Origin: Planctomycetota bacterium
Lineage (GTDB): Bacteria; Planctomycetota; Phycisphaerae; Sedimentisphaerales; Anaerohalosphaeraceae
Reading direction: 5' to 3'
Assembly: GCA_019456225.1 (NCBI GenBank)
Contig: VRUI01000042.1
Location: forward strand, 1-43,453
Length of the DNA stretch: 43,453 bases
Part shown: in pieces, positions 10,580 through 36,513 of the stretch
How the letters are laid out: the number at the start of each line of letters is the position of its first letter
Position numbering within the stretch: the first letter of the stretch is position 1
The notes under the pieces: model-generated
Seen by the model: the letters and a program-made list of their open reading frames with translations, nothing else
Databases searched by the model: none
What the model was told of the DNA's origin: nothing
Translations under genes and position numbers: made by a program

Positions 10580-10639
10580 TAGCCTCGGCCGAAAGGCCGA
10601 ATCCAAAATTAGTAATTAGTAATTCGTAATTAGTAATTG
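10580..10639 (-). repeat. 3' composite element (tandem repeat plus hairpin) after acyl-CoA dehydrogenase
   Basis: Read with the gene: tandem AATTACTAATTACG-type repeat beginning 4 bp after the stop, then the hairpin TCGGCC-TTT-CGGCCGA followed by GGCT and an AT-rich stretch. Same design as the elements after etfA and etfB. Confidence 0.85.
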
Positions 10640-12472: not shown

Positions 12473-12531
12473 CAGCCTCGGCCGAAGGCCGATTCCAAAA
12501 TTCGTAATTCGTAATTTGTAATTCGTAATTG
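12473..12531 (-). repeat. 3' composite element after etfA
   Basis: Tandem repeat of AATTACG/AATTACA units beginning at the etfA stop codon, then the hairpin TCGGCC-TT-CGGCCGA, GGCTG and TTTAATTTA. It lies inside the operon, between etfA and the acyl-CoA dehydrogenase gene. Confidence 0.88.
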
Positions 12532-13590: not shown

Positions 13591-13643
13591 AAAGCCTCGG
13601 CCAAAGGCCGAGTCCTTAATTCGTAATTAGTAATTCGTAATTA
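13591..13643 (-). repeat. 3' composite element after etfB
   Basis: Read with the gene: AATTACG tandem units 6 bp after the etfB stop, then the hairpin CTCGGCC-TTT-GGCCGAG followed by GCTTTTTATTTTAT, which resembles an intrinsic terminator or attenuator inside the operon. Confidence 0.87.
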
Positions 13644-17618: not shown

Positions 17619-17647
17619 TATCCCTGCGCTTGCGCTTCGGGCTTTTG
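17619..17647 (+). repeat. CCCTGCGC dispersed repeat, copy 1
   Basis: TATCCCTGCGCTTGCGCTTC followed by GGGCTTTTG. Same orientation on plus as all other copies (17739, 26109, 28484, 31586, 37691, and a partial at 37651). Confidence 0.9.
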
Positions 17648-24676: not shown

Positions 24677-25171
24677 TTATACTCTGCGAACGGATTCTAT
24701 TGTTACCTGTTCTGTCGGTACGTCGTCGTGCGTTCCCTTGCGGCCGGTCTTTACTTTTGCGATCTCGTCGATTGTCTCGATTCCGTCTGTGACCTTTCCG
24801 AATACTGTATAGCCCGGGTTTGCAGGATCGGTGTAATCGAGGAACGGGCTGTCGACGAGGTTAACGAAGAACTGGCTTGTTGCGCTGTTGGGGTCGTTGG
24901 TGCGTGCCATCGCCAAAGTACCGCGTTCATTCTTTAGTCCGTTGTCCGACTCTATCGGGATCGGGGCATCGTTTGGTTTTTCCTTCATGTCGGGGTCCAT
25001 TCCGCCGCACTGAACCATAAAACCTGGGATGACGCGATGAAAAATTAGTCCATCAAAGAACTCTTTGTCGACGTAGCTGAGAAAATTTTTGGCCGTTACC
25101 GGCGATGCCTCTTCGTCGAGTTCGACTGTCATAGTTCCTTTGCTTGTTATCATTTCTACTTTGGTACTCAT
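24677..25171 (-). CDS. ppiB: Peptidyl-prolyl cis-trans isomerase, cyclophilin type (cytosolic), 164 aa
   Basis: Cyclophilin PPIase that speeds Xaa-Pro isomerisation. Key family residues: FFDGLIFHRVIPGFMVQCGG (Arg of FHR is catalytic), then [25 protein letters not shown] and YTVFGKVTDGIETIDEIAKV. No signal peptide, so cytosolic. Starts with MSTKVEM; GGAG precedes the ATG. It follows the lipoprotein cyclophilin on the same strand with an 88-bp gap, likely as a pair from duplication. Confidence 0.95.
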   Translation of the reverse strand: MSTKVEMITSKGTMTVELDEEASPVTAKNFLSYVDKEFFDGLIFHRVIPGFMVQCGGMDPDMKEKPNDAPIPIESDNGLKNERGTLAMARTNDPNSATSQFFVNLVDSPFLDYTDPANPGYTVFGKVTDGIETIDEIAKVKTGRKGTHDDVPTEQVTIESVRRV

Positions 25172-25236
25172 TTTTACTCCGGGTTTTAAATGTCTAATTT
25201 ATGGATACCGCCTTCGGCGGAAGCATTTTTATCAGC

Positions 25237-25258
25237 ATGGGCACAGCCCATCCTACCT
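25237..25258. repeat. GGGCAC-AGCCC palindrome of a dispersed family
   Basis: ATGGGCACAGCCCAT next to CCTACCTG, at the 3' side of the cyclophilin lipoprotein stop. Related unit GTGGGCACGGCCCACCCTACG occurs at 33851-33871 in a different spacer. Confidence 0.6.
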
Positions 25259-25259
25259 G

Positions 25260-25973
25260 CTATTTTTTAATTACTTTTACTGATTTTATTACTATTGGTT
25301 TTATGGGGCACAGCTTCATTGTAGCTCCCCTGCTCGAATACTTGTCGGTCGTTGGCACATTAACTATAGCCTCGGCAACTTTCATGCCTGTTACGACCTT
25401 TCCGAATACGGCATAACCGGCTGAGTCAGTGGACCCGTCAGGGTAAGTGATAACTTTGCCGTAATCGAGGCCGGCGCTATTGACTACATTGATAAAAAAC
25501 TGGCTTGTTGCCGAATTTGCCGGTCGTTTTCTGGCCATCGCTACGGTTCCGCGAAGATTACTCAGTCCGCCCTTAGCCTCGTTCTTAATAGCCGGGCGGG
25601 TTTGCTTTTCGACTAATTTTGGGGTAAACCCGCCGCCCTGGATCATAAATCCGGGCCATACACGATGAAAGAGAAGTCCGTCATAGAACCCATCGTTTAC
25701 ATACTGGAGGAAATTCTTAACGGTGATCGGAGCCCTTTCGGGATAAAGCTCGATGACGATCTCGCCCATATCGGTCACGATAGAAACACGCTCAAGAGCG
25801 GGCTTTACTTCGACAGGAGGAGCCTCTTTGACGACGGGGGCTTCCTTGACATCGGGGATGACTTCTATTTTCGGCGGTTCTTTGGCCTGATCTTCCTTAC
25901 ATCCGGCAATAAAACCGCAAAAAACCACTGCTAAAACAACAATAAAAAACCACGATACTAGATTACGAACCAT
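25260..25973 (-). CDS. Cyclophilin-type peptidyl-prolyl isomerase, lipoprotein, 237 aa
   Basis: Same fold as its neighbour but membrane-anchored: signal peptide ending FIAGC (Cys25) followed by a Glu/Pro/Val-rich linker (residues 26-62) and a cyclophilin domain ([55 protein letters not shown]). It probably assists folding of exported proteins. AAGGAG lies just before the start. The pair may have different compartments for the same activity. Confidence 0.93.
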
Positions 25974-26107
25974 ATTATTCTCCTTTCAAAATAGTTAACT
26001 GATCTATATATACACTGACTATGGGAAAAAAGCAATATTGAAATTATTGAAAAAAAGGGGCCGGTACTACCTGCGTTTGGGTATTTAGGCAATTTTGAGA
26101 ACTGGGG

Positions 26108-27037
26108 TTATCCCTGCGCTTGCGCTTCGGGCTCTTGTTCGGTTTTTTGTTTCAGGATCGCGGTGAGGGCCTGTTTTAGTTCCGGGTGTTCGAAAATGAA
26201 GCCGGAATCGAGCAGTACGCCCGGTTCTGCGCGGATGCTGGATAACAGGAGAACATTGGCTAGTTTTCCGAGCATTATCCGGGCGATCGGCGCGGGAATT
26301 TTTAAGAATTGCGGTTTGCCCAGGACCTTTGCCAGGATCTTTGTGAACTGGGTGTTGGTTACGGGATGGGGGGAGGCTACATTGACTGGGCCTTTGACAG
26401 ATTCGGTTGTGATTGCGTGTATTATGGCTCTTACGGCGTCGGTCCTGGTGACCCAGCTCCAGTATTGGTGTCCATCGCCAAAGATCGGGCCGAAACCGGC
26501 CTGGAAGGAACCGAGCATCTTGCTTAAGGGTCCACCTTTGCCTAAAACCATTGCAAAGCGGGCATTGACAACCCTGACTCCGCAGTTTTTCAGCGAATCG
26601 GATACCGCTTCTCTGTCTTTTGCTACCTGGGCGAGGAAATCGTTGCCGCATGGCTGGTCCTCGCGAATCTTGTTGTCGCCCCTGTCGCCGTAATAGCCGA
26701 TGCCGGATGCACTGAGGTAAACCGCGGGGCGGTTTTCAAGGCTCATGATGGCATCGCAAACGATCTTTGCGCCCTCTACGCGACTTTGGCGGATCTTTCG
26801 CATCTTCTTTCTGGTCCATCGGCCTGCTATGTTTTCGGCGGCGAGGTGGACGACGGCGGCGCAACCGTTGAAGGCAGACTTGTCGACGTAGCCTTCGTCC
26901 GGTGACCAGACAAAATCGTCCATCTCTTTAACACTGCTCTTGCGAACAAGTCGACTAACCTGATGGCCCTGACCCTGTAATTGCTCGACAAGGGCCGAAC
27001 CTATAAAGCCTCTTGAACCGCTGACCAGAATTTTCAT
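26108..27037 (-). CDS. TIGR01777-family NAD(P)-dependent epimerase (SDR39U1/YfcH-like), 309 aa
   Basis: Atypical SDR. Nucleotide-binding GSRGFIGSALVEQLQ at 7-21; active-site YYGDRG (LSASGIGYYGDRG near 110-122) and the SDR39U1-type signature WTRKKMRKIRQSRVEGAKIV; C-terminal LLLSSIRAEPGVLLDSGF, EHPELKQALTAIL. Cell role of this family is uncertain (YfcH/SulA proteins; epimerase activity is assumed). The last residues EPEAQAQG come from the CCCTGCGC dispersed repeat, so the tail is recent and repeat-derived. Start ATG has GGAG about 6-7 nt upstream. Confidence 0.9.
   Translation of the reverse strand: MKILVSGSRGFIGSALVEQLQGQGHQVSRLVRKSSVKEMDDFVWSPDEGYVDKSAFNGCAAVVHLAAENIAGRWTRKKMRKIRQSRVEGAKIVCDAIMSLENRPAVYLSASGIGYYGDRGDNKIREDQPCGNDFLAQVAKDREAVSDSLKNCGVRVVNARFAMVLGKGGPLSKMLGSFQAGFGPIFGDGHQYWSWVTRTDAVRAIIHAITTESVKGPVNVASPHPVTNTQFTKILAKVLGKPQFLKIPAPIARIMLGKLANVLLLSSIRAEPGVLLDSGFIFEHPELKQALTAILKQKTEQEPEAQAQG
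26109..26136 (+). repeat. CCCTGCGC dispersed repeat, copy 3, inside a coding end
   Basis: TATCCCTGCGCTTGCGCTTC then GGGCTCTTG; on the minus strand it supplies the last eight codons and the stop of the epimerase gene. Confidence 0.9.
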
Positions 27038-27131: not shown

Positions 27132-28202
27132 TTACGCGACTGTTACTTCATCGCATTGGTAGACGTCCTGTATTGCGTTTAGTATCTCGATTCCTTCGGC
27201 CATTGGTTTCTGGAATGCCTTTCTTCCGCTTATGAGGCCTATTCCGCCGGCCCGCTTGTTTATTACGGCTGTGTGGACGACTTGCCTGAGATCGTCTTTT
27301 CCGGATGGTCCCCCGGAATTTATCAGGCCTATCCTGCCCATGTAACTGTTTACCACCTGCCATCGGGTAAGGTCTATGGGATGGGCCGAATTAAGCTCTG
27401 TGTACATTCTCTCGTCGTACTTTCCGAATGTGTGGTCCTCGTTCATGGCCTTGTATCCGCCGTTGTCTATGGGGAGTTTCTGCTTGATGATATCTGCCTG
27501 GATCGTTGCGCCGATATAGTTTGCCTGTCCGGTGAGGTCGCTTGATGCGTGGTAGTCAATTCCGTCGATCTTAAACGCTTTGTTTCGCAGGTAGCACCAG
27601 AGGATTGCAGCCATGCCCATCTCGTGGGCGGCGTGGAATGCGGCGCTTATCTCGACGATCTGACGGCGGCTCTCTGGCGAACCGAAATAGATCGTTGCGC
27701 CGACTGCAACAGCGCCGAGGTCTTTGGCTTGCTTGACATTTGCAAAAAGCACCTGGTCGTGTCTGTTTGGGTAGGACAACAGTTCGTTGTGGTTTAGCTT
27801 TAGAATGAAAGGTATCTTGTCGGAATACTTTCTGGAAACGGCACCGAGGACGCCAAGCGTAGAAGCGACTCCGCTGCATCCGCCCTCTATGGCCAGCCGG
27901 ACGATGTTTTCAGGGTCGAAATAGGCGATGTTGGGAGCGAAAGATGCGCCTGCGGAATGTTCTATTCCCTGATCGACGGGCAGCAGTGAAAGGTAACCGG
28001 TTCCGGCGAGACGACCGGATCCGAAGAGGCGCTTTAGCGATGCAAGGACACCGGCGGGCCTATCGGTAATACTGAAAATCCGCTCTACCCAGTCATCACC
28101 GGGAATATGCAGATTGTCCTTAGATATTTTTGGGTGGTCAAAGCCGAGAAGGTAATCGGAATATTTCCCCAATTGCGAGGCGATCTTATCAATCATAGCC
28201 AT
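27132..28202 (-). CDS. fbaB: Class I fructose-bisphosphate aldolase (DhnA/FbaB type), 356 aa
   Basis: Schiff-base aldolase of the archaeal/DhnA type for glycolysis/gluconeogenesis: cleaves fructose 1,6-bisphosphate to DHAP and glyceraldehyde 3-phosphate. Seen: [19 protein letters not shown], the Lys-containing [68 protein letters not shown]. These match FbaB closely; length (356) is right. Cytosolic. AAGGAG 8 nt upstream. Monocistronic, with repeats on its 3' side. Confidence 0.96.
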
Positions 28203-28529: not shown

Positions 28530-30251
28530 TTACAGTTCGACCTGGGTCATTTCTATTGCCTGGTTTAGTTCCGGTTCTATTTCGGCCAGTGGCGTTCTTT
28601 CGGGGCAGAGTACTTTTTCTTTGGCCTGGAAAGTTCTGCTTCCGTTTTTGTTCATGGTTTTCTGGCATCTTTCAAACCAGCCGGTTCGCATAACAAATAG
28701 CACGGGGGCTGCTAACCGCATGGAGTCGCGTTTTCCTTTGTACTCGATATTTATACGCTTTAGATTTTCGTCAAAACTTACGAGAAAAGTCCTGCCTTTG
28801 TCTTGCGGGATATCGCCTGCGAATTCGACGTTTATGATATACCTGCTTTCGTCGAGGTCTGCTTCTGCTCTAAAGTGCAGAGCGGTAACTCCGGTTTCGG
28901 CGGCTGCGCGGTTGGTTGCGTCTATGACCTGGTTTGCGCTGAGTTTTTCGCCGGTCATGTTTGTCATGTCGCGGCCTTTGCGGACGAAGGTGATCTTTGG
29001 CGTATTGTTGTAATAGCCTTCGACCCTGACGATATCGTTTATATCGTAGCGATAGAGGCCTCCCATTGTTGTTATGAAGATGTAGTACTCGCCTCCGTCT
29101 TTGAGCTGGTCGGCTGTCAGGTAGTCCCACTTATCCGGTCTATCGGGGTTTGCCTGCTGCTGGGCGATATCTACGAACTCGTAGAAATTGGTGAGTATAG
29201 CCAGTGCGCCTGCGCTTCCATCGTCTGAAAGTGGTATCGAACAGCGTGCCTCGCTGGAGAGGTAGCCCCAGTCCCTGATTGGAATGTTTCTGTCGCCGTC
29301 CGGATTGAACCACTGGGGGAACTTTTCTATGTAGTGGCCGACGGTACCGCCCTTCCAGCAGGTGATTAGGGTAAGGTTCGGCCAGTAGTCGGCTGGGATG
29401 AGCAGGCCGGAGCGTTTACTTTTGAGATTGCTCAGGAACTCACTTCGTTTGCGGTTTGGATGTAAATACTTTTCAATCGAATCTCGAATGTCATCGGCTA
29501 TCGGGAATTTATGCGTCAAACTGCCGTCGCGGATATCGCGTATGATCTCTTCGCCGAACTCGTTGCCCTTTTCGCACATTTTCAGGATCGAAGACGGGTT
29601 GGCAGTGCTGATAACGGCGGCGTCCTGCTCCATCGCGATACGCATGACGGTGTAGTACTTTGCCTGGTAATCGGTGATCTCAAAGACGCGGTATGGGATG
29701 GCGTACCTCTTGCGGAAGATCGCGGGCATGTTCTTATAGATGCAGCCGGAGGTGGAGCCGTATGGGATTCCGGCGGAGGTGTAGCCCTCGACGGCTGTTG
29801 AGACGAGAGTGACGTTTACGCCCTTTCGCAGGTTTGGATAGGCGGTTAGCAGGTGGTAACCCCATATACTCATAACACTGCCGTGCTCTTTGCTGCGGCA
29901 GGTTGGTGTGACAATAATATATTTGGGAGAGCCCATTGTTCCGCTGGTGCGGGCGAACATCAGCGGCGGTTCTGCTGTCAAGACATTGACGGCGCCGGCT
30001 GCGACCCTTTCGATATAGTCCCTGATGTCTTCATAGGTTATGATGGGAACCTGTCGCTGGTAATCGGTGACTGACCGGATCTCTGAAAAACCGTATCTCC
30101 TGCCGTACTCAGTGTCTTTGTTCTTTTGGAGTATCGATAAAAGTTTGTCGATCTGCGACTGCGCCGGATCCATCGTTGCCTTATCGTATTTTCCGGCAAC
30201 GTGCTTTGCCTTCATCATTATCAGGCCTATTATCGTTTTTTCAATTGGCAT
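28530..30251 (-). CDS. GH3-family acyl acid-amido synthetase, 573 aa
   Basis: ANL-superfamily adenylate-forming enzyme of the GH3 family, best known in plants where it joins auxin or jasmonate to amino acids through an acyl-AMP. ATP-binding motif I is FARTSGTMGSPK (102-107 core). The C-terminal half has the GH3 signature GLYRYDINDIVRVEGYYNN, then KITFVRKGRDMTNMTGEKLSANQV, matching the typical TTxGLYRYxVGDVV and NTPQxxF regions. Bacterial GH3 substrates are largely unknown. It is the first of two minus-strand genes (enolase-superfamily enzyme just upstream, 35-bp gap) that face the PanE-like/SDR/hydrolase genes. Run of seven G before ATG acts as a strong Shine-Dalgarno-like sequence. Confidence 0.9.
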   Translation of the reverse strand: MPIEKTIIGLIMMKAKHVAGKYDKATMDPAQSQIDKLLSILQKNKDTEYGRRYGFSEIRSVTDYQRQVPIITYEDIRDYIERVAAGAVNVLTAEPPLMFARTSGTMGSPKYIIVTPTCRSKEHGSVMSIWGYHLLTAYPNLRKGVNVTLVSTAVEGYTSAGIPYGSTSGCIYKNMPAIFRKRYAIPYRVFEITDYQAKYYTVMRIAMEQDAAVISTANPSSILKMCEKGNEFGEEIIRDIRDGSLTHKFPIADDIRDSIEKYLHPNRKRSEFLSNLKSKRSGLLIPADYWPNLTLITCWKGGTVGHYIEKFPQWFNPDGDRNIPIRDWGYLSSEARCSIPLSDDGSAGALAILTNFYEFVDIAQQQANPDRPDKWDYLTADQLKDGGEYYIFITTMGGLYRYDINDIVRVEGYYNNTPKITFVRKGRDMTNMTGEKLSANQVIDATNRAAAETGVTALHFRAEADLDESRYIINVEFAGDIPQDKGRTFLVSFDENLKRINIEYKGKRDSMRLAAPVLFVMRTGWFERCQKTMNKNGSRTFQAKEKVLCPERTPLAEIEPELNQAIEMTQVEL

Positions 30252-30286
30252 TATCCCCCCCGTACCAATTTATTATTTATTATTGA

Positions 30287-31423
30287 TTATTTAAAAACCT
30301 CTATCATTTCTGTTTTGTATTTGTTTATTTTTTTTTCGTTTGGGTTTACTCCTATTCCCGGGCGGTCTATTCGTTTTGCCCAGCCGCCCGGACCTATGGT
30401 CATTGATGTCCTGGTGATGTCGTGTTTGAGCAGGAGGAATCCGTAGGAACCTTCGCACCACCTGATGTGTTTGCACCTGGTGGCGATGTGGCGGCCGGCT
30501 GCTGATAATATTGAGGTCTCTCCGACCTGTGCTCCCAGCTGACAGGCGAGACCGGCTTGTACGGCTTTGTGGTAGATCGCGGCCGAATTGATCAGCCCTC
30601 CGCATTTTGATACCCGGATATTGAAAACGTCGCAGGCTTTTTGGTCGATAAGTTTTTGGGCGTCTTCTATACTGCAAAGCGATTCGTCGGCGACTACATC
30701 GGTCAGTTTTGCGGCGGTGATTTCGGCCATGCCCTCATAGTCGTCGGCTGCGACGGGTTGCTCTACAGCGGCAAGATTAAATTTTTTCATCAACAACAAC
30801 TGGCGTATCGCGCGGTCGGCGCTCCAGGCGCAATTTGCGTCTATTCGCAGCGATATCGATGGCGGCAGGTGGTCTCTTATGCTTTTTAGCAGATGAAAAT
30901 TATCTTCGAGCGAGGGACCGACTTTGACTTTGATATCCTTGAAACCGAACAGCCGCATCGCCCTGGCGAATCTGCCTGCCTTTACAGGATCGTCAGTTGC
31001 GATGACTCCGCTATAGCGTACTTTGCGGCGAACGGGCGGGCCGATGACGTCGGCTGCGGATTTTGTGTAGGTCTTTCCGGCGAGATCGAGCAGGGCCAGT
31101 TCGGCTGCGCAAAATGCGGCTTGCTGGTTTTTGTTTATGTTTTTCAGTGCTGAAGAGAGGTACTCTGCGAGATGGTTTAAGTTTGAAAAACATTTTCCGA
31201 GCATTGGAGGTAAAATATTGTCTAAGAGTTCTCTCTTGACGGTATCGACAGTTTCGCCGGTGACATAGGGCCTTGGGCAGCACTCGCCGAATCCCATGTA
31301 GCCATTGCCGGCGATTGCGCAGACTATTACATTCGACGTAACCCTTCTGGCCGCGAGCGAGTGTGAAACACCAAAACGCATCGGTATTTCAATACTGTAA
31401 ATCCTGAAACCTGCGATCCTCAT
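30287..31423 (-). CDS. Enolase-superfamily enzyme, muconate lactonizing / dipeptide-epimerase subgroup, 378 aa
   Basis: Two-domain enolase-superfamily protein. Catalytic set: KxK with Lys165 and Lys167 (DIKVKVG), metal ligands Asp195 (RIDANCAW), Glu221 (AAVEQPV) and Asp246 (ADESLC), and opposite-face Lys273 (RVSKCGG). Having Lys on both faces fits the MLE subgroup (o-succinylbenzoate synthase, N-acylamino-acid racemase, dipeptide epimerase, cycloisomerase). The GAQVGETSILSAAGRHIA block is typical of that group. Substrate not predictable. It precedes GH3 in a probable operon, which is consistent with an N-acyl-amino acid or dipeptide product. N-terminal capping domain residues 1-130. Confidence 0.9.
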   Translation of the reverse strand: MRIAGFRIYSIEIPMRFGVSHSLAARRVTSNVIVCAIAGNGYMGFGECCPRPYVTGETVDTVKRELLDNILPPMLGKCFSNLNHLAEYLSSALKNINKNQQAAFCAAELALLDLAGKTYTKSAADVIGPPVRRKVRYSGVIATDDPVKAGRFARAMRLFGFKDIKVKVGPSLEDNFHLLKSIRDHLPPSISLRIDANCAWSADRAIRQLLLMKKFNLAAVEQPVAADDYEGMAEITAAKLTDVVADESLCSIEDAQKLIDQKACDVFNIRVSKCGGLINSAAIYHKAVQAGLACQLGAQVGETSILSAAGRHIATRCKHIRWCEGSYGFLLLKHDITRTSMTIGPGGWAKRIDRPGIGVNPNEKKINKYKTEMIEVFK

Positions 31424-31707
31424 TTTGATTTATTATTAACCCCCTTATTGTATGTCCAAATGGTTATCGTCATGTGGGCGTGTTGGCTTTGGTAAAAAAT
31501 TCTTGAAAACCGACACGGTCACCCGCAAGCTTAGTTCGAAGGTGCCATCCGATATTGGTTGGTTTTACGTTTTGCGTTGGGGTTTTATCCCTGCGCTTGC
31601 GCTTCGGGTTTTTATTTGGATTTTTTATTCAAGGGATGGCGGTTTTATGACGACTTGACGGTTAGTAATGTTTTGGGGATATACCGTTTAGCTCATCGGG
31701 GGGCTTA
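31424..31707. promoter_or_regulatory. Divergent intergenic region between GH3-enolase and PanE-like genes
   Basis: Holds the promoters of both arms. On plus, TTGACG near 31656 and TATACC near 31681 are spaced about 19 bp, a weak candidate. It also carries CCCTGCGC repeat copy 5 (31586-31614). A 68-codon plus frame (31452-31658) is not supported. Confidence 0.45.
31586..31614 (+). repeat. CCCTGCGC dispersed repeat, copy 5
   Basis: TATCCCTGCGCTTGCGCTTC then GGGTTTTTA. Confidence 0.9.
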
Positions 31708-32685
31708 ATGCCGGATACTATCTATATAATAGGCGCAGGCGCGATCGGGTCGCTGGTGGGGAGCTTTCTTACGAGGAAATTCGGCAAGGAAAAAGTCGTC
31801 CTCGTTGACGTCGACGAGGAACATATCGACGCTGCCCAAAAAAACGGGCTGAAAGTTTTTGACAAAGGGACCAAATCGCCGCGTCTGGAAACCGTCGATA
31901 TCAATATTACCAGTGCCGAGAAGATCGACAAGGCCAAACTGGAAAACGTGATACTGGCGACGAAATCATACTCGAACGATGAGGCACTTAAAGGGCTGAA
32001 AAAAGACATCCCGCTGCTGGTACTGCAAAACGGCTATGACGAAAGGCTTAACGAATTTCCGAACGCGGTCAGGGGAGTTGAGTTTGGATTTGCCTGTCAG
32101 ATCAAAGAGCCGGGTTACGTTTTCAATGCTGTAAAAGGCAAATACGTGATGGGGACATCGGCCGGTTTGACTACCCATGTTGCCGATTGGGCGGCGATGT
32201 TCAACGAATCCGATATCAAGGCCGACATGAAAGAAAATATCGACGGGTACATGTGGAGCAAACTGCTGATCAACTCGGCACTGAATCCGGTGAGCGCGAT
32301 AAAGAAATGCTCGTTTAAAGAACTGATAGAGACCGATGAATCAAGGGAGCTTTTTAAGGCACTTTACGTCGAGAGTTACCCGGTGGTTAAAAGAAAGGCC
32401 GATGAACTGAATCAGAAGCTTGGCAGTTTCATCGGGCCGCCTGATATTGCCAACTGGATCTTTAAAAAACCGTCGGTGTCGGACTTTTTGCTCAAAATGA
32501 TCGCCGGTAAATTCGGTGAGGTGGAAAGTTCGATGCTCCAGGATGTGCGAAAGAACCGCCCTACCGAGATCGATTTTATTAACGGGGCGATCGTGCGGCT
32601 TGGGAAGGAATATGGTATTGAAACACCGAAGAATGAATGGATCTGTAAAGAAATTACGAATTACGAATTACGAATTACGAATTGA
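31708..32685 (+). CDS. Ketopantoate reductase (PanE/ApbA)-like oxidoreductase, 325 aa
   Basis: NAD(P)-dependent 2-dehydropantoate 2-reductase-fold protein. Rossmann motif IIGAGAIGSLVG (residues 7-18) and the typical C-terminal helical domain (KLLINSALNPVSAIKKC near 190-206; DVRKNRPTEIDFINGAIVRLG, 275-295). Many PanE-family members act on other 2-oxo acids. Pantothenate synthesis partners are not seen next to it. GGGGGG precedes the ATG. The last ten residues, ITNYELRITN, are encoded by the AATTACG tandem repeat that spans the stop codon. It starts the plus-strand arm of the divergent group. Confidence 0.87.
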   Translation: MPDTIYIIGAGAIGSLVGSFLTRKFGKEKVVLVDVDEEHIDAAQKNGLKVFDKGTKSPRLETVDINITSAEKIDKAKLENVILATKSYSNDEALKGLKKDIPLLVLQNGYDERLNEFPNAVRGVEFGFACQIKEPGYVFNAVKGKYVMGTSAGLTTHVADWAAMFNESDIKADMKENIDGYMWSKLLINSALNPVSAIKKCSFKELIETDESRELFKALYVESYPVVKRKADELNQKLGSFIGPPDIANWIFKKPSVSDFLLKMIAGKFGEVESSMLQDVRKNRPTEIDFINGAIVRLGKEYGIETPKNEWICKEITNYELRITN

Positions 32686-32710
32686 GGATATGGCCTTTGG
32701 CCATGGCTAT
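32651..32710 (+). repeat. 3' composite element spanning the PanE-like stop
   Basis: Four tandem AATTACG units including the TGA stop, then the ATGGCC-TTT-GGCCAT hairpin. Oriented with the gene. Confidence 0.88.
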
Positions 32711-32726
32711 TTTATTGGGAGATATA

Positions 32727-33719
32727 ATGAAGAATCTTGTTACGGGTGCTACGGGTTTTGTTGGGAGTCATGTTGCTGAGAAATTGATCGCCGATGGTGA
32801 GCAGGTTATTGGGCTTGCTCGTGAGACGAGCGATACGACTTATCTGAAACATATCGGGGCGGATATTCGGTATGGCACGCTGACCGGGCCCGCTTCGCTG
32901 CATGAAGCGACCAAGGGGATCGACCGGGTCTTTCATGTCGCGGCGATGACGGAGGAGTGGATTCCGAAAGAGATTTCCTGGAAAATTAATGTCGAGGGGA
33001 CGGCGAACCTGCTTGATGCGTCTTTGGAAAACGGGGTTAAGAGATTTTTCTTTGTGAGCAGCCTGGCGGTGATGGGGTTTAAGAACCATTACAACACGGG
33101 GGTTAAGACCGACTATGCCAAATCGCATGACCCGTATATCGACTCGAAGATCGAGGCGGAAAAGCTGGTTTGGCGATTTCATAAGTTCGGGCTGCCTGTG
33201 ACGGTGCTTCGGCCGGGGTTTATGTATGGGCCGCGCGACAGGCGATTTTTGAAGAGGATCCTGAGCAAATTGGAAAGCAACGGGTTTATGTTCATCGGGC
33301 AAGGGAGTAATATGCTGAACCTGAATTATGCGGGGAATTTCGCTGACGCTGTGGCGGCCGCGGCACGGACGGAAGATTCTATCGGTGAGGCTTACAATAT
33401 CGCTAACGATGACAAGAGCCTTGACATGCAGACGTTTATCTATAAGGTTGCCGATCTATGGGGGTACCAGCGGCCGCAAAAGCATCTGCCGGTGGCTGTC
33501 GCTAAAATCGCTACAAGCCTTATGGAGGGGTCGGCGAAACTGCTGCATAAAAAAGAGCCGCCGCTGCTGACGAAAACACGACTGAAATTTCTGAGCCTGA
33601 ACCTGGAGTTCGATATCTCAAAAGCAAAAGAACAGCTTGGGTTTAAAAATAATGTGAATATTGACGATGGATTGTCGATCACGAAGCAGTGGATCGAGGA
33701 AAGCGGCGCTTATAACTGA
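32727..33719 (+). CDS. NAD-dependent epimerase/dehydratase (SDR, 3-beta-HSD-like), 330 aa
   Basis: Extended SDR with TGATGFVGSHVAEKLI at residues 5-20 and catalytic S/Y/K region (VSSLAVMGF then DPYIDSKIEAEKLVWRF). The C-terminal half (LNYAGNFADAVAAAARTED, SLDMQTFIYKVADLWG) is like 3-beta-hydroxysteroid dehydrogenase-type epimerases. GGGAG precedes ATG 32727, which is preferred over the ATG 45 nt earlier, since the extra residues come from the repeat. Middle gene of the plus arm. Exact substrate unknown; the family often reduces or epimerises sugar nucleotides or sterol-like ketones. Confidence 0.9.
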   Translation: MKNLVTGATGFVGSHVAEKLIADGEQVIGLARETSDTTYLKHIGADIRYGTLTGPASLHEATKGIDRVFHVAAMTEEWIPKEISWKINVEGTANLLDASLENGVKRFFFVSSLAVMGFKNHYNTGVKTDYAKSHDPYIDSKIEAEKLVWRFHKFGLPVTVLRPGFMYGPRDRRFLKRILSKLESNGFMFIGQGSNMLNLNYAGNFADAVAAAARTEDSIGEAYNIANDDKSLDMQTFIYKVADLWGYQRPQKHLPVAVAKIATSLMEGSAKLLHKKEPPLLTKTRLKFLSLNLEFDISKAKEQLGFKNNVNIDDGLSITKQWIEESGAYN

Positions 33720-33720
33720 T

Positions 33721-33871
33721 TAAAAAAAGAATATCCAATATCCAACACGGAATATCGAACAAGGAAGTAAAAGAGTACAGGCCTGAATGTTTTTTATTTG
33801 GTTATTGGTTATTCCTTGTTCGTTATTGGATATTCAAGACATATACAGCGTGGGCACGGCCCACCCTACGT
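33721..33871. repeat. Tandem-repeat spacer with GTGGGC-ACG-GCCCAC hairpin
   Basis: ATATCCA units, then inverted TTATTGG/TTATTCC units and a GTGGGCACGGCCCACCC hairpin at 33851-33866. It follows the SDR gene and extends to the hydrolase start. Confidence 0.75.
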
Positions 33872-33884
33872 GGATAATTATCTA

Positions 33885-34871
33885 ATGAAAACTCATCTTC
33901 CATTTACCTTTAGAGACGGACTTACTATCGACAGCGGCGAGTATAGAGAGCGTGCGTTGATCGAGTTGGAGCGGCTTCGGGAGAGGTGTGGGAGTTTGAA
34001 AACTATTATTCGTCTTGAGACTATTTTGGCCGAGCCGGTGTCTTCTTCGGATGATTTTGAGGTTGGTAGTTTTATGTCGGCCGGCGGACATGGTATTTAT
34101 TATAATAAGTGGAAGGTTGAATGTCCGGAGCATGTTTTTATATTTCTAAACGGGCTGGAAAGTCATGCCGGGTGGTTTGACGAGATGGCTGACGAGATTG
34201 CAGGCGAAAGGGTAAGGACGTATGGGCTGGACCGCAGGGGGTCGGGGCTAAACTGCAGCAGCAGCGGGAAATATCAGGATTGGATCGATGACGTAAAGGA
34301 TCTTGCAACAATCGCGAGAAATGAGAACCCGGTCGCTAAAATGCATCTTGTGTCAATATGTTTTGGCGCGAAGGTTGCGACGGCTTGTGCGATACAACAG
34401 CCGGGCAGGTACGACTCGCTTATATTTTTATCGCCGGGGCTTTCGGTTAAAGTGAGCCCTACACCGAAGGAAAAATTGCTGATCGGGATAGATAAACTGC
34501 CGCGGATGTATTTCAATATACGGACGCCGATCAAGAATGATGAAATGTTTACATCGCAGGGAAAAGCCCTCTACTTCCTCTATAACGACAAACTGAGAAC
34601 GCACTCGCCACGGGCAGGTGACTTTTACCAGGCGAGAATGATCGACTTGTACATTTCAAAAAATCTCGACAAAGTTACGACGCCGTCGCTGGCGCTGCTT
34701 GCCGGAAAAGACCGGGTTGTAAACAATAAGAAAACAATAAAGGCTCTTAACAAGTTCGGGCAAAAACCGAAAATTATCGAGTACCCGGAATCGGATCATG
34801 TGATTTTTTTTGGGAAGTCAAAGAATGAAATGAGACGGGATATTCTTAACTATTTGCAATCGCCGGCATAA
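33885..34871 (+). CDS. Alpha/beta hydrolase with Cys in the nucleophile position, 328 aa
   Basis: Serine-hydrolase fold resembling monoacylglycerol lipases: oxyanion region FIFLNGLESHAGWFDEMAD (residues 85-103), YGLDRRGSG, elbow HLVSICFGAKVA (154-165), acid Asp276 in GKDRVV, His305 in ESDHVIF. The elbow reads S-I-C-F-G, so the nucleophile is Cys159, as in dienelactone hydrolases, not Ser. ATG 33885 is chosen because an upstream extension to 33798 is made only of repeat sequence. Probably last gene of the PanE-SDR-hydrolase arm. Substrate unknown. Confidence 0.85.
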   Translation: MKTHLPFTFRDGLTIDSGEYRERALIELERLRERCGSLKTIIRLETILAEPVSSSDDFEVGSFMSAGGHGIYYNKWKVECPEHVFIFLNGLESHAGWFDEMADEIAGERVRTYGLDRRGSGLNCSSSGKYQDWIDDVKDLATIARNENPVAKMHLVSICFGAKVATACAIQQPGRYDSLIFLSPGLSVKVSPTPKEKLLIGIDKLPRMYFNIRTPIKNDEMFTSQGKALYFLYNDKLRTHSPRAGDFYQARMIDLYISKNLDKVTTPSLALLAGKDRVVNNKKTIKALNKFGQKPKIIEYPESDHVIFFGKSKNEMRRDILNYLQSPA

Positions 34872-35154: not shown

Positions 35155-35242
35155 ATAGCCTCGCCCGCAAGGGCGAAACATCAATTCGTAATTCGTAATT
35201 AATAATTCGTAATTATCAAACTGGCCAACGGTCAGTTTGACT
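35155..35242 (-). repeat. 3' composite element after korC
   Basis: Read with the gene: hairpin TCAAACTG-N8-CAGTTTGA at the stop codon, AATTACG tandem units, then TTCGCCC-TTGC-GGGCGAGGC and AT-rich tail. Same three-part design as after typA (40290-40386). Confidence 0.85.
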
Positions 35243-35786
35243 TTGTGACTGCTTTTATTCCTTCTACCAGTGCTTTTTTGTTTATTGTTATCAGTGCGGC
35301 TTTTTTCTTTGCGAAAAGCTGCTCTATGGCCTTGTCGATGCTCCTGGTTTTCAGTATGCCGGTTTTGGCGATGAACGCACCTAGAGCGACAACATTTGCG
35401 ACCCTTGCGTTTCCGAGCCAGCGGGCAATTTCGGCAGCTTCTACATGTACAACGTCCAGGTCTTCCCTTTCGACATCGCGGGTTATCATCGATGAGTTCA
35501 AAATCACAATGCCGTTTTTGGCGATCTGGCTCTCGAACTTATCGAGTGAGGGCTGGTTGAGAATTATGGCTACGTCGGGCTTGCTGACAAAGGGGCTTGC
35601 AATCTCGCTGTCGGAGATGACCACGGTCGCGTTGGCCGTTCCGCCTCGCATCTCAACGCCATAAGAAATCATACCGGCGACGTGTTTGTCTTCCATAACG
35701 CATGCGCGGGCGATGATATTACCGGTCAGGACGATGCCCTGGCCGCCAAAGCCGGCGATAACTATCTGGGTTGTTTTATCTGCCAT
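35232..35786 (-). CDS. korC: 2-oxoacid:ferredoxin oxidoreductase gamma subunit, 184 aa
   Basis: Gamma (domain III-type) subunit of the 2-oxoglutarate/branched-chain 2-oxoacid:ferredoxin oxidoreductase. Signature VIAGFGGQGIVLTGNIIARA near the start and SYGVEMRGGTANATVVIS. ATG 35784-35786 with AAGGA 8 nt upstream; it overlaps the korB stop by 11 bp, so the two are translationally coupled. Last gene of the operon. Confidence 0.93.
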   Translation of the reverse strand: MADKTTQIVIAGFGGQGIVLTGNIIARACVMEDKHVAGMISYGVEMRGGTANATVVISDSEIASPFVSKPDVAIILNQPSLDKFESQIAKNGIVILNSSMITRDVEREDLDVVHVEAAEIARWLGNARVANVVALGAFIAKTGILKTRSIDKAIEQLFAKKKAALITINKKALVEGIKAVTKSN

Positions 35787-36513
35787 CTTTTTCCTTAAAT
35801 ATCCCAAGCGGAAATACTGTCTTCATCTCCGTGTTAACAAAATCCAATCCCTGAACGGGTGTAAGCTTCCAGTCGGTCGGGCACATGGAAAGTACCTCGA
35901 CGAGCGAAAAACCCCGTCCTTCGATCTGATTTAAAAATGCTCTCTTAATAGCCTTCTTTGCCTTGATCGTGTCTCTGGCCGTGCTGACTGCGACACGTTC
36001 CAGGTACGTAACGCCGTCAAGATTGCTAAGCAGCTCACAGACCTTGATCGGTGGGCCTTCCTGGTTGTTGCCGCGGCCTGCCTCGGAGGTCGTCGAACTC
36101 TGGCCGAGCAAAGTGGTCGGTGCCATCTGGCCGCCCGTCATACCGTATATGGCGTTATTGATGAATATAACGGTGATGTCCTCGCCTCGGTTTGCGGCGT
36201 GGATCGTCTCGCCCATGCCGATAGCGGCAAGGTCGCCGTCGCCCTGGTACGTAAAGACAACCTTGTCGGGCTGGATGCGTTTAATCGCCGTCGCGACGGC
36301 TGGGCTTCGACCGTGGGCACACTCGATAATATCACAGTTGAAATAGTTATAGAGCAAAACCGCACAACCGACAGGCGCAGTGCCGATGGTCTTACCGCGG
36401 ACGTCAAGCTCTTCGAGGACTTCGGCGACAAGCCGATGGGCGATACCATGGCCGCAACCGGGACAGTAATGGGTCCTGACATCTTTTTGAGTTTCTTTAC
36501 GACAAAATTCCAT
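35776..36513 (-). CDS. korB: 2-oxoacid:ferredoxin oxidoreductase beta subunit, 245 aa
   Basis: Thiamine diphosphate-binding subunit. Motifs: HYCPGCGHG near 15-24, the ThDP/Mg loop GDGDLAAIGMGETIHAANRGEDITVIFINN (GDG to NN), GMTGGQMAPTT. It catalyses, with the alpha and gamma subunits, CoA-dependent oxidative decarboxylation of a 2-oxo acid with ferredoxin reduction. Substrate may be 2-oxoglutarate or 2-oxoisovalerate; the alpha subunit resembles VorB. AAGGA before ATG. Confidence 0.94.
   Translation of the reverse strand: MEFCRKETQKDVRTHYCPGCGHGIAHRLVAEVLEELDVRGKTIGTAPVGCAVLLYNYFNCDIIECAHGRSPAVATAIKRIQPDKVVFTYQGDGDLAAIGMGETIHAANRGEDITVIFINNAIYGMTGGQMAPTTLLGQSSTTSEAGRGNNQEGPPIKVCELLSNLDGVTYLERVAVSTARDTIKAKKAIKRAFLNQIEGRGFSLVEVLSMCPTDWKLTPVQGLDFVNTEMKTVFPLGIFKEKDGR

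Follow-up and report, generated by a model that had tools for sequence, protein, structure and literature searches.

The stretch analysed here (the window) comprises 43,453 nucleotides, positions 1 to 43,453 of contig VRUI01000042.1 from the GenBank assembly GCA_019456225.1 of a Planctomycetota bacterium of the family Anaerohalosphaeraceae, an assembly of 4.45 Mb that is 96% complete. From about 28530 to about 34871 it holds a cassette of five genes in two facing operons (Table 1). On the minus strand, genes for a GH3 enzyme and for an enolase-superfamily protein of the MLE subgroup (hereafter MLE) are separated by 35 bp, and beyond a 284-bp divergent region the plus strand encodes a PanE-like protein, an extended short-chain dehydrogenase/reductase (SDR) and an alpha/beta-hydrolase-fold protein, HYDA. 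Families were assigned with Pfam and NCBIfam models and PDB sequence searches. All five genes are intact with their catalytic residues kept, and the five families named in a preliminary description of this DNA are all present, well above the Pfam cut-offs, with the starts of two genes corrected (most likely ATG 32727 for the SDR and ATG 33888 for the hydrolase) by reference to the Rossmann motif and to the N-termini of orthologues. The limits of the cassette are placed at these positions because neither flanking gene, a class I aldolase gene on the left (27132-28202) and a POR-type 2-oxoacid oxidoreductase gene on the right (35232-35807), is retained in related clusters. A foreign origin was considered from base composition, which is uninformative (47-51% G+C in the cluster genes vs 48% in the window). 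The GH3, MLE and HYDA genes are a conserved, patchily distributed set and no chance adjacency, and we propose, with a probability of roughly 0.45, that this cassette produces an N-acyl amino acid and inverts its configuration.

Table 1 Features of the cassette, with the family matches that identify them.
Feature	Coordinates	Strand	Evidence
GH3 acyl-acid amido synthetase, 573 aa	28530..30251	-	Pfam GH3 5e-73, GH3_M, GH3_C
MLE-subgroup enolase-superfamily protein, predicted N-acyl-amino-acid racemase, 378 aa	30287..31423	-	MR_MLE_C 3.2e-43, MR_MLE_N
Intergenic region separating the divergent operons, 284 bp	31424..31707	.	ORF coordinates
PanE/ApbA ketopantoate-reductase-like protein, 325 aa	31708..32685	+	ApbA-type Pfam 1.1e-29; TIGR00745
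Extended SDR, HpnA/OleD/3beta-HSD-like, 330 aa	32727..33719	+	Pfam Epimerase 1.9e-38, 3Beta_HSD
S33-type alpha/beta-hydrolase-fold protein HYDA, 327 aa	33888..34871	+	Pfam Hydrolase_4, 7.7e-28

Linkage and shared descent of the GH3 and MLE genes

Each of 58 relatives, the window genome included, was searched for GH3 and MLE. GH3 was found in 7, MLE in 7 and both in 6 (Fisher p=1.2e-6), and with the window's own genome excluded MLE is present in 5 of 6 GH3-positive vs 1 of 51 GH3-negative relatives (Fisher p=8.5e-6), values that are not clean probabilities because the sampled genomes are related and kinship is uncorrected. Of the 35 genomes in the window's own family, only three gave GH3 or MLE matches at the thresholds applied; all three carry both genes together with the hydrolase. 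A sample of 392 genomes from the phylum gave ten further strong GH3 loci, and MLE in G+C-rich relatives was identified by translated searches. Physical linkage of GH3 and MLE is seen at 14 loci, one in each of 14 genomes: the window, G002 and G013 (same family), G043 (same order), L031-L036 (planctomycetes of other families), L009 (Sumerlaeota, BRC1) and L010 (Dulcicalothrix desertica PCC 7102), L090 and L092 (cyanobacterial phylum). The two genes are immediate neighbours in 13 of these loci; in L009 some 4 kb separates them. Co-occurrence, which the preliminary description had offered as a check on its pathway, is thereby borne out for these two families. Two same-order relatives carry GH3 and MLE on different contigs, and a profile search places the MLE subfamily in two more GH3 carriers.

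The gene order around the pair varies by lineage. Within the family the divergent layout is retained in all three clusters, with PanE and a nitroreductase as variable members: G002 has GH3-MLE opposite PanE-nitroreductase-SDR-hydrolase, and G013 has MLE-GH3 opposite SDR-hydrolase, without PanE. In L031-L036 the order is alpha/beta-hydrolase A, MLE, GH3, alpha/beta-hydrolase B and patatin (L033 ends inside hydrolase A), with a MinD/ParA-type ATPase gene upstream in five of the six (L031, L032 and L034-L036; operon at L031:6380-15150) and a DUF445 gene downstream in L031 that has a homologue in L036. The Sumerlaeota contig L009, in which the MinD-type ATPase recurs, holds MLE, this ATPase, a hydrolase, GH3 and patatin. 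In two distant genomes of the cyanobacterial phylum a gene for a haem-oxygenase-like diiron protein (PF14518) directly precedes MLE and GH3 (L010:6036-9590 and L090:6913-11139), and in L092 MLE lies beside a single 880-aa open frame that holds both FA_hydroxylase and GH3. An anti-phage defence role was discarded, as PADLOC gave weak matches only, to the MinD-like ATPase in one relative's operon. A protein of about 540 aa with no Pfam match is encoded upstream in L031, L035 and L036; its likeness to M2/M3-type peptidases is an impression only.

A quick GH3 tree, in which the long branches L008 and L092 are of unsure placement, puts all MLE-linked GH3s in one clade (SH-aLRT 95), 14 of whose 18 rows are MLE-linked. 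The groups of the GH3 tree (the window with G002 and G013; the other planctomycetes; L010 with L090 and G043) appear again in the MLE tree, where L009 and L092 have no firm place. GH3 and MLE have mostly travelled together. That the genes are chance neighbours without a common function would fit the variation of PanE and the G002 nitroreductase between clusters, and also the several GH3s of the phylum that have no linked MLE. For GH3, MLE and HYDA, however, it is contradicted by their linkage across phyla and by the broadly congruent trees, and we consider it highly improbable.

A predicted GH3 ligase and enolase-type racemase

All three GH3 domains (N-terminal, middle and C-terminal) pass the Pfam cut-offs, and the nucleotide-binding motifs RTSGTMGSPKY, GYLSSEARCSI and YRYDINDIVRV are intact and conserved across relatives. 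The best solved relatives in the PDB search are JAR1/GH3 amido synthetases at about 1e-29, with GH3.15/GH3.12 down to about 1e-24, a ranking of little weight because all GH3 matches there are plant enzymes. The plant GH3 proteins (JAR1, GH3.5, GH3.12; E about 1e-29) have the three domains and the nucleotide motifs in common with the window GH3 and are remote sequence relatives of it. Given that the solved relatives are amido synthetases and that the nucleotide motifs are kept, the window GH3 is likely to form an acyl-adenylate and then an amide by ATP-dependent ligation. Substrates of the plant enzymes are jasmonate, auxin and benzoates, and we know of no enolase partner for them. The match to JAR1 and GH3.15/GH3.12 would agree with conjugation of a small aromatic or hormone-like acid for detoxification or signalling, as by JAR1 or GH3.12, the other enzymes releasing or modifying the conjugate. 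This is quite improbable, given that a ranking of plant enzymes says little, that the bacterial contexts are lipid-like and that the bacterial GH3 which has been characterised takes fatty acids (PMC12493201).

The characterised enzyme is OlsH of the planctomycete ornithine-lipid pathway of Singulisphaera acidiphila, published in 2025, in which OlsH couples ornithine to a free fatty acid, the product then being O-acylated by OlsI, a protein of the alpha/beta-hydrolase fold; according to the same study, other GH3s may take other amino acids (PMC12493201). OlsH is also a GH3, but with its kin it forms a separate clade (SH-aLRT 100), and the window GH3, at 105.5 bits vs an equivalog cut-off of 620, was rejected as an OlsH. 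Genome G000 has no OlsH match at E<=1e-150; OlsH-type genes above the curated cut-off are present in other genomes of the window's phylum. Nor is OlsG found beside the window GH3, as a Pfam scan of the window proteins gave no methyltransferase in the cluster. Relative to the OlsH/OlsI/OlsG pathway, the window adds an enolase-type racemase candidate and an SDR. OlsH-carrying planctomycetes have a pair of MLE and hydrolase A genes, and in one of them, G748 (L120), a group of two ketosynthases, a hydrolase and GH3 lies about 3.6 kb upstream of that pair.

For the MLE, catalytic columns were taken from a 15-sequence alignment and the window residues were then checked directly. The catalytic set is complete: K165-x-K167 on strand 2, the metal ligands D195, E221 and D246, and the second-face lysine K273 on strand 6. 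These are the KxK, D/E/D and Lys signatures of the MLE subgroup, and the lysines on both faces had been read correctly in the preliminary description. The N-terminal domain has PRxYVTGET, strand 7 reads Q-V-G-E-T and strand 8 E-G-S-Y-G-x-L-L-L; PRxYVTGET, QVGETxxLSAAGRH and EGSYG are conserved motifs of this MLE subfamily's own. The nearest structure is 2p88/2p8b/2p8c (2p88: 142 bits with the single sequence, 252 bits with a profile), followed in the profile search by dipeptide epimerases (221 and 216 bits) and muconate-lactonising enzymes (<=188 bits). The protein of the 2p88, 2p8b and 2p8c structures is presumably the N-succinyl-Arg/Lys racemase of B. cereus. The N-succinyl- and N-acyl-amino-acid racemases (1sja-1sjd included) have the fold, the Lys/Lys acid-base pair and the metal ligands in common with the window MLE, although even 2p88, the nearest, is distant; in the N-succinyl systems the partner is an N-succinyltransferase, whereas here it is a GH3 ligase. 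The Lys/Lys mechanism is that of enolase-family racemases acting on N-acyl amino acids (PMC8142540), and what PMC4372640 supports is that a B. cereus N-succinyl-Arg/Lys racemase was predicted via docking to a homology model. We slightly favour action of the window MLE on an amide at C-alpha.

Two other activities were weighed for this protein. A dipeptide epimerase, one of the options first put forward, is not favoured, since the protein lacks the DxD motif that Ala-Glu epimerases have at the end of strand 8 (E324-G-S stands where 1jpm of B. subtilis has D-x-D) and its closest structure is 2p88. The MLE might also lactonise, dehydrate or eliminate, in the manner of muconate cycloisomerase or o-succinylbenzoate synthase, and turn the GH3 acid or amide into a ring or unsaturated product. 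Its top NCBIfam match is indeed the muconate/chloromuconate family (144 bits, below cut-off; no equivalog model is passed), and the strand-8 motif resembles cycloisomerases, as we take their pattern to be, as well as 2p88. The profile nevertheless puts 2p88 and then the dipeptide epimerases ahead of the muconate-lactonising enzymes, and the scanned window proteins include no aromatic-degradation or menaquinone genes, so that such a product is unlikely.

Partner enzymes and repeats around them

HYDA carries the nucleophile motif S-I-C-F-G at residue 156, with Asp and His candidates, in line with the cysteine nucleophile first described. The form S-[IL]-C-F-G is restricted to the window, G002 and G013, and the other hydrolase A proteins checked have [GA]-[LI]-S-W-G. 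The nearest solved relatives are monoacylglycerol lipases (about 1e-11). An orthologue adjoins MLE in L031-L036, and also in the planctomycetes L120-L122, where GH3 is not adjacent. Using OlsI profiles built from the OlsH-G-I operons L108-L111, we rejected HYDA as an OlsI orthologue (profile probability 41% and identity 20% with the window clade, a kinship at superfamily level only); OlsI has a Ser nucleophile motif, HYDA a Cys. Cysteine nucleophiles in the alpha/beta-hydrolase fold occur in PHA synthase, an acyl transferase, and in dienelactone hydrolase. HYDA is a candidate acyltransferase or amide/ester hydrolase. It leans to acyl transfer because the nucleophile is Cys in the window's family, which is a leaning and not proof: the transferase role is a tentative assignment, and the hydrolase role a little more tentative.

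The SDR is present in all three family clusters, with orthologues 78% identical in G002 and 67% in G013, and has the motifs GATGFVG and YIDSK. Its best NCBIfam matches, HpnA (169.5 bits) and OleD-like models (159.6 and 147.2 bits), are all below the equivalog cut-offs, at less than half that of HpnA and about one quarter of the OleD-type one. As an OleD 2-alkyl-3-oxoalkanoate reductase it was rejected (cut-off 580), and no OleA, OleB or OleC was noticed in the window. The simplest guess for its substrate is a beta-keto or beta-hydroxy acyl chain.

PanE passes TIGR00745 (189 bits vs a cut-off of 141) and has the KLLIN and RPTE motifs. The preliminary description made it a step of the pathway, a part of the proposal that is weakened by its distribution: a cluster PanE occurs in two of the three family clusters, with an orthologue only in G002, and G013 has its PanE away from the cluster, which itself lacks one. 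The window PanE may serve pantothenate, as it is the genome's sole PanE above cut-off and PanB lies on a separate contig, C107. The family can do without it, since most relatives have PanB and no PanE above cut-off. We lean somewhat towards PanE being simply the ketopantoate reductase for CoA biosynthesis, outside the GH3 pathway, which is compatible with the rest of the proposal, even though most relatives manage without PanE and it stands first in the divergent operon in both genomes that carry it. Its participation in the pathway is doubtful. An array of AATTCGT heptamers at 32652-32683 extends over the 3' end of the PanE gene, whose final residues (NYELRITN) it encodes; further arrays lie between window genes at 10607-10638, 12499-12530, 13618-13642 and 35183-35214.

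Another short repeat, TATCCCTGCGCTYGCGCTTCGGG (<=3 mismatches), is mostly intergenic and occurs in the window at 17619, 26109, 28484, 31586 and 37691. The copies flanking the GH3-MLE pair were rejected as an insertion boundary, as the repeat is genome-wide in the 311 kb sampled, window included; four more copies lie in about 270 kb elsewhere in the genome, and it is denser in the window. Outside the cassette, at 24677-27037 on the minus strand, a TIGR01777/YfcH-type SDR lies beside two frames that resemble peptidyl-prolyl isomerases.

Lipid context and a proposed pathway

The neighbours of related GH3 genes are of lipid type. Patatin lies near GH3 in L009 and L031-L036, a fatty acid hydroxylase domain shares its frame with GH3 beside MLE in L092, and an ICMT/PEMT-like methyltransferase gene directly follows GH3 in L030, with an ICMT-like homologue after MLE and GH3 in L090. 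In L041:8381-16881, Pfam matches around a sister-group GH3 include two ketosynthases, an alpha/beta hydrolase, FabA-like dehydratases, an acyl carrier protein and an aminotransferase, in what looks like a type II fatty-acid/polyketide cluster terminated by GH3. Neighbouring-group GH3s in L043, L045 and L120 (G748) likewise lie beside two ketosynthases and an alpha/beta hydrolase. Given these neighbours, the monoacylglycerol lipases as nearest solved relatives of HYDA, and the use of free fatty acids by OlsH (PMC12493201), it is fairly probable that the acid is fatty or lipid-type.

The preliminary description had the five proteins together make, invert, reduce and release an amide. The conserved GH3/MLE/hydrolase set supports the core of this, with amide formation followed by inversion at C-alpha as the most economical course; the PanE step does not hold up as well. 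From the gene content and catalytic residues, we infer the following order. GH3 would activate a carboxylic acid with ATP and condense it with an amino acid to an N-acyl amino acid, whose acyl group is probably fatty. The enolase would then shift the C-alpha proton between faces, with K167/K273 as acid-base pair and the metal on D195/E221/D246, and the N-acyl amino acid would emerge racemised or in the D configuration. HYDA may transfer or remove an acyl group on the acylated product, with transfer favoured in the window's family, and the SDR may reduce or oxidise a keto or hydroxy group of the acyl chain. PanE would be a variable neighbour, possibly a housekeeping ketopantoate reductase only.

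Several points weigh against this pathway. MLE-subgroup folds also catalyse cycloisomerisation and dehydration, and sequence alone cannot choose among all these activities. MLE is not obligatory for GH3, since L037-L040 (two genera) hold GH3 and hydrolase B with no linked MLE. OlsI, the hydrolase-fold partner in the characterised pathway, is not an orthologue of HYDA. The extra lipid genes, the clearest being those for fatty acid hydroxylase, ketosynthases and patatin, occur in relatives and none in the window, so that the fatty nature of the window's substrate is inferred. The same core enzymes might also run a stereo-conversion cycle, in which GH3 acylates, MLE racemises and the hydrolase deacylates, converting a D- to an L-amino acid or the reverse with no lipid end product. 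Acylating, racemising and hydrolysing enzymes are indeed linked in most loci, and the nearest solved MLE relative is, as we take it, of the N-succinyl-Arg/Lys-racemase type. However, such a cycle leaves patatin, the FA_hydroxylase-GH3 frame, the ketosynthases and acyl carrier protein, the ICMT-like methyltransferase and the SDR unexplained, and the cycles known rely on an acyl-CoA transferase together with a metallo-hydrolase and do not involve GH3. We consider it improbable and retain the N-acyl amino acid as the preferred product.

A more specific version, which we regard as somewhat unlikely in full, is that GH3 and MLE, in at least three phyla, form a two-enzyme module for D-configured N-fatty-acyl amino acids with lineage-specific tailoring. 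The tailoring partners would be a Cys- or Ser-type hydrolase-fold acyltransferase, an SDR, a haem-oxygenase-like diiron protein, a fatty acid hydroxylase or a carboxyl methyltransferase, according to lineage. Both GH3-dependent amino-lipid synthesis and enolase-type N-acyl-amino-acid racemases are already published, the latter long known; their union in one conserved module of several phyla did not turn up in the literature searched, which was open-access and takes in neither subscription papers nor preprints.

Bacterial GH3s number in thousands, and we found one study that characterises one of them (PMC12493201). The GH3 clade described here, with its racemase candidate, points to a concrete class of products to test for: N-acyl amino acids whose configuration is inverted or mixed. 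GH3 beside an MLE with PRxYVTGET and QVGET provides a genomic handle for producers among planctomycetes, Sumerlaeota and the cyanobacterial phylum. Its recurrence in several bacterial phyla makes it probable that the GH3-enolase pair marks a class of amino-acid lipids not described before. On the more specific version above, the MLE would be the first racemase of the enolase superfamily with membrane-lipid-type N-acyl amino acids as known substrates. If the proposal is true, a hitherto unassigned MLE subfamily would gain a physiological role, and stereochemistry would become a variable in bacterial amino lipids.

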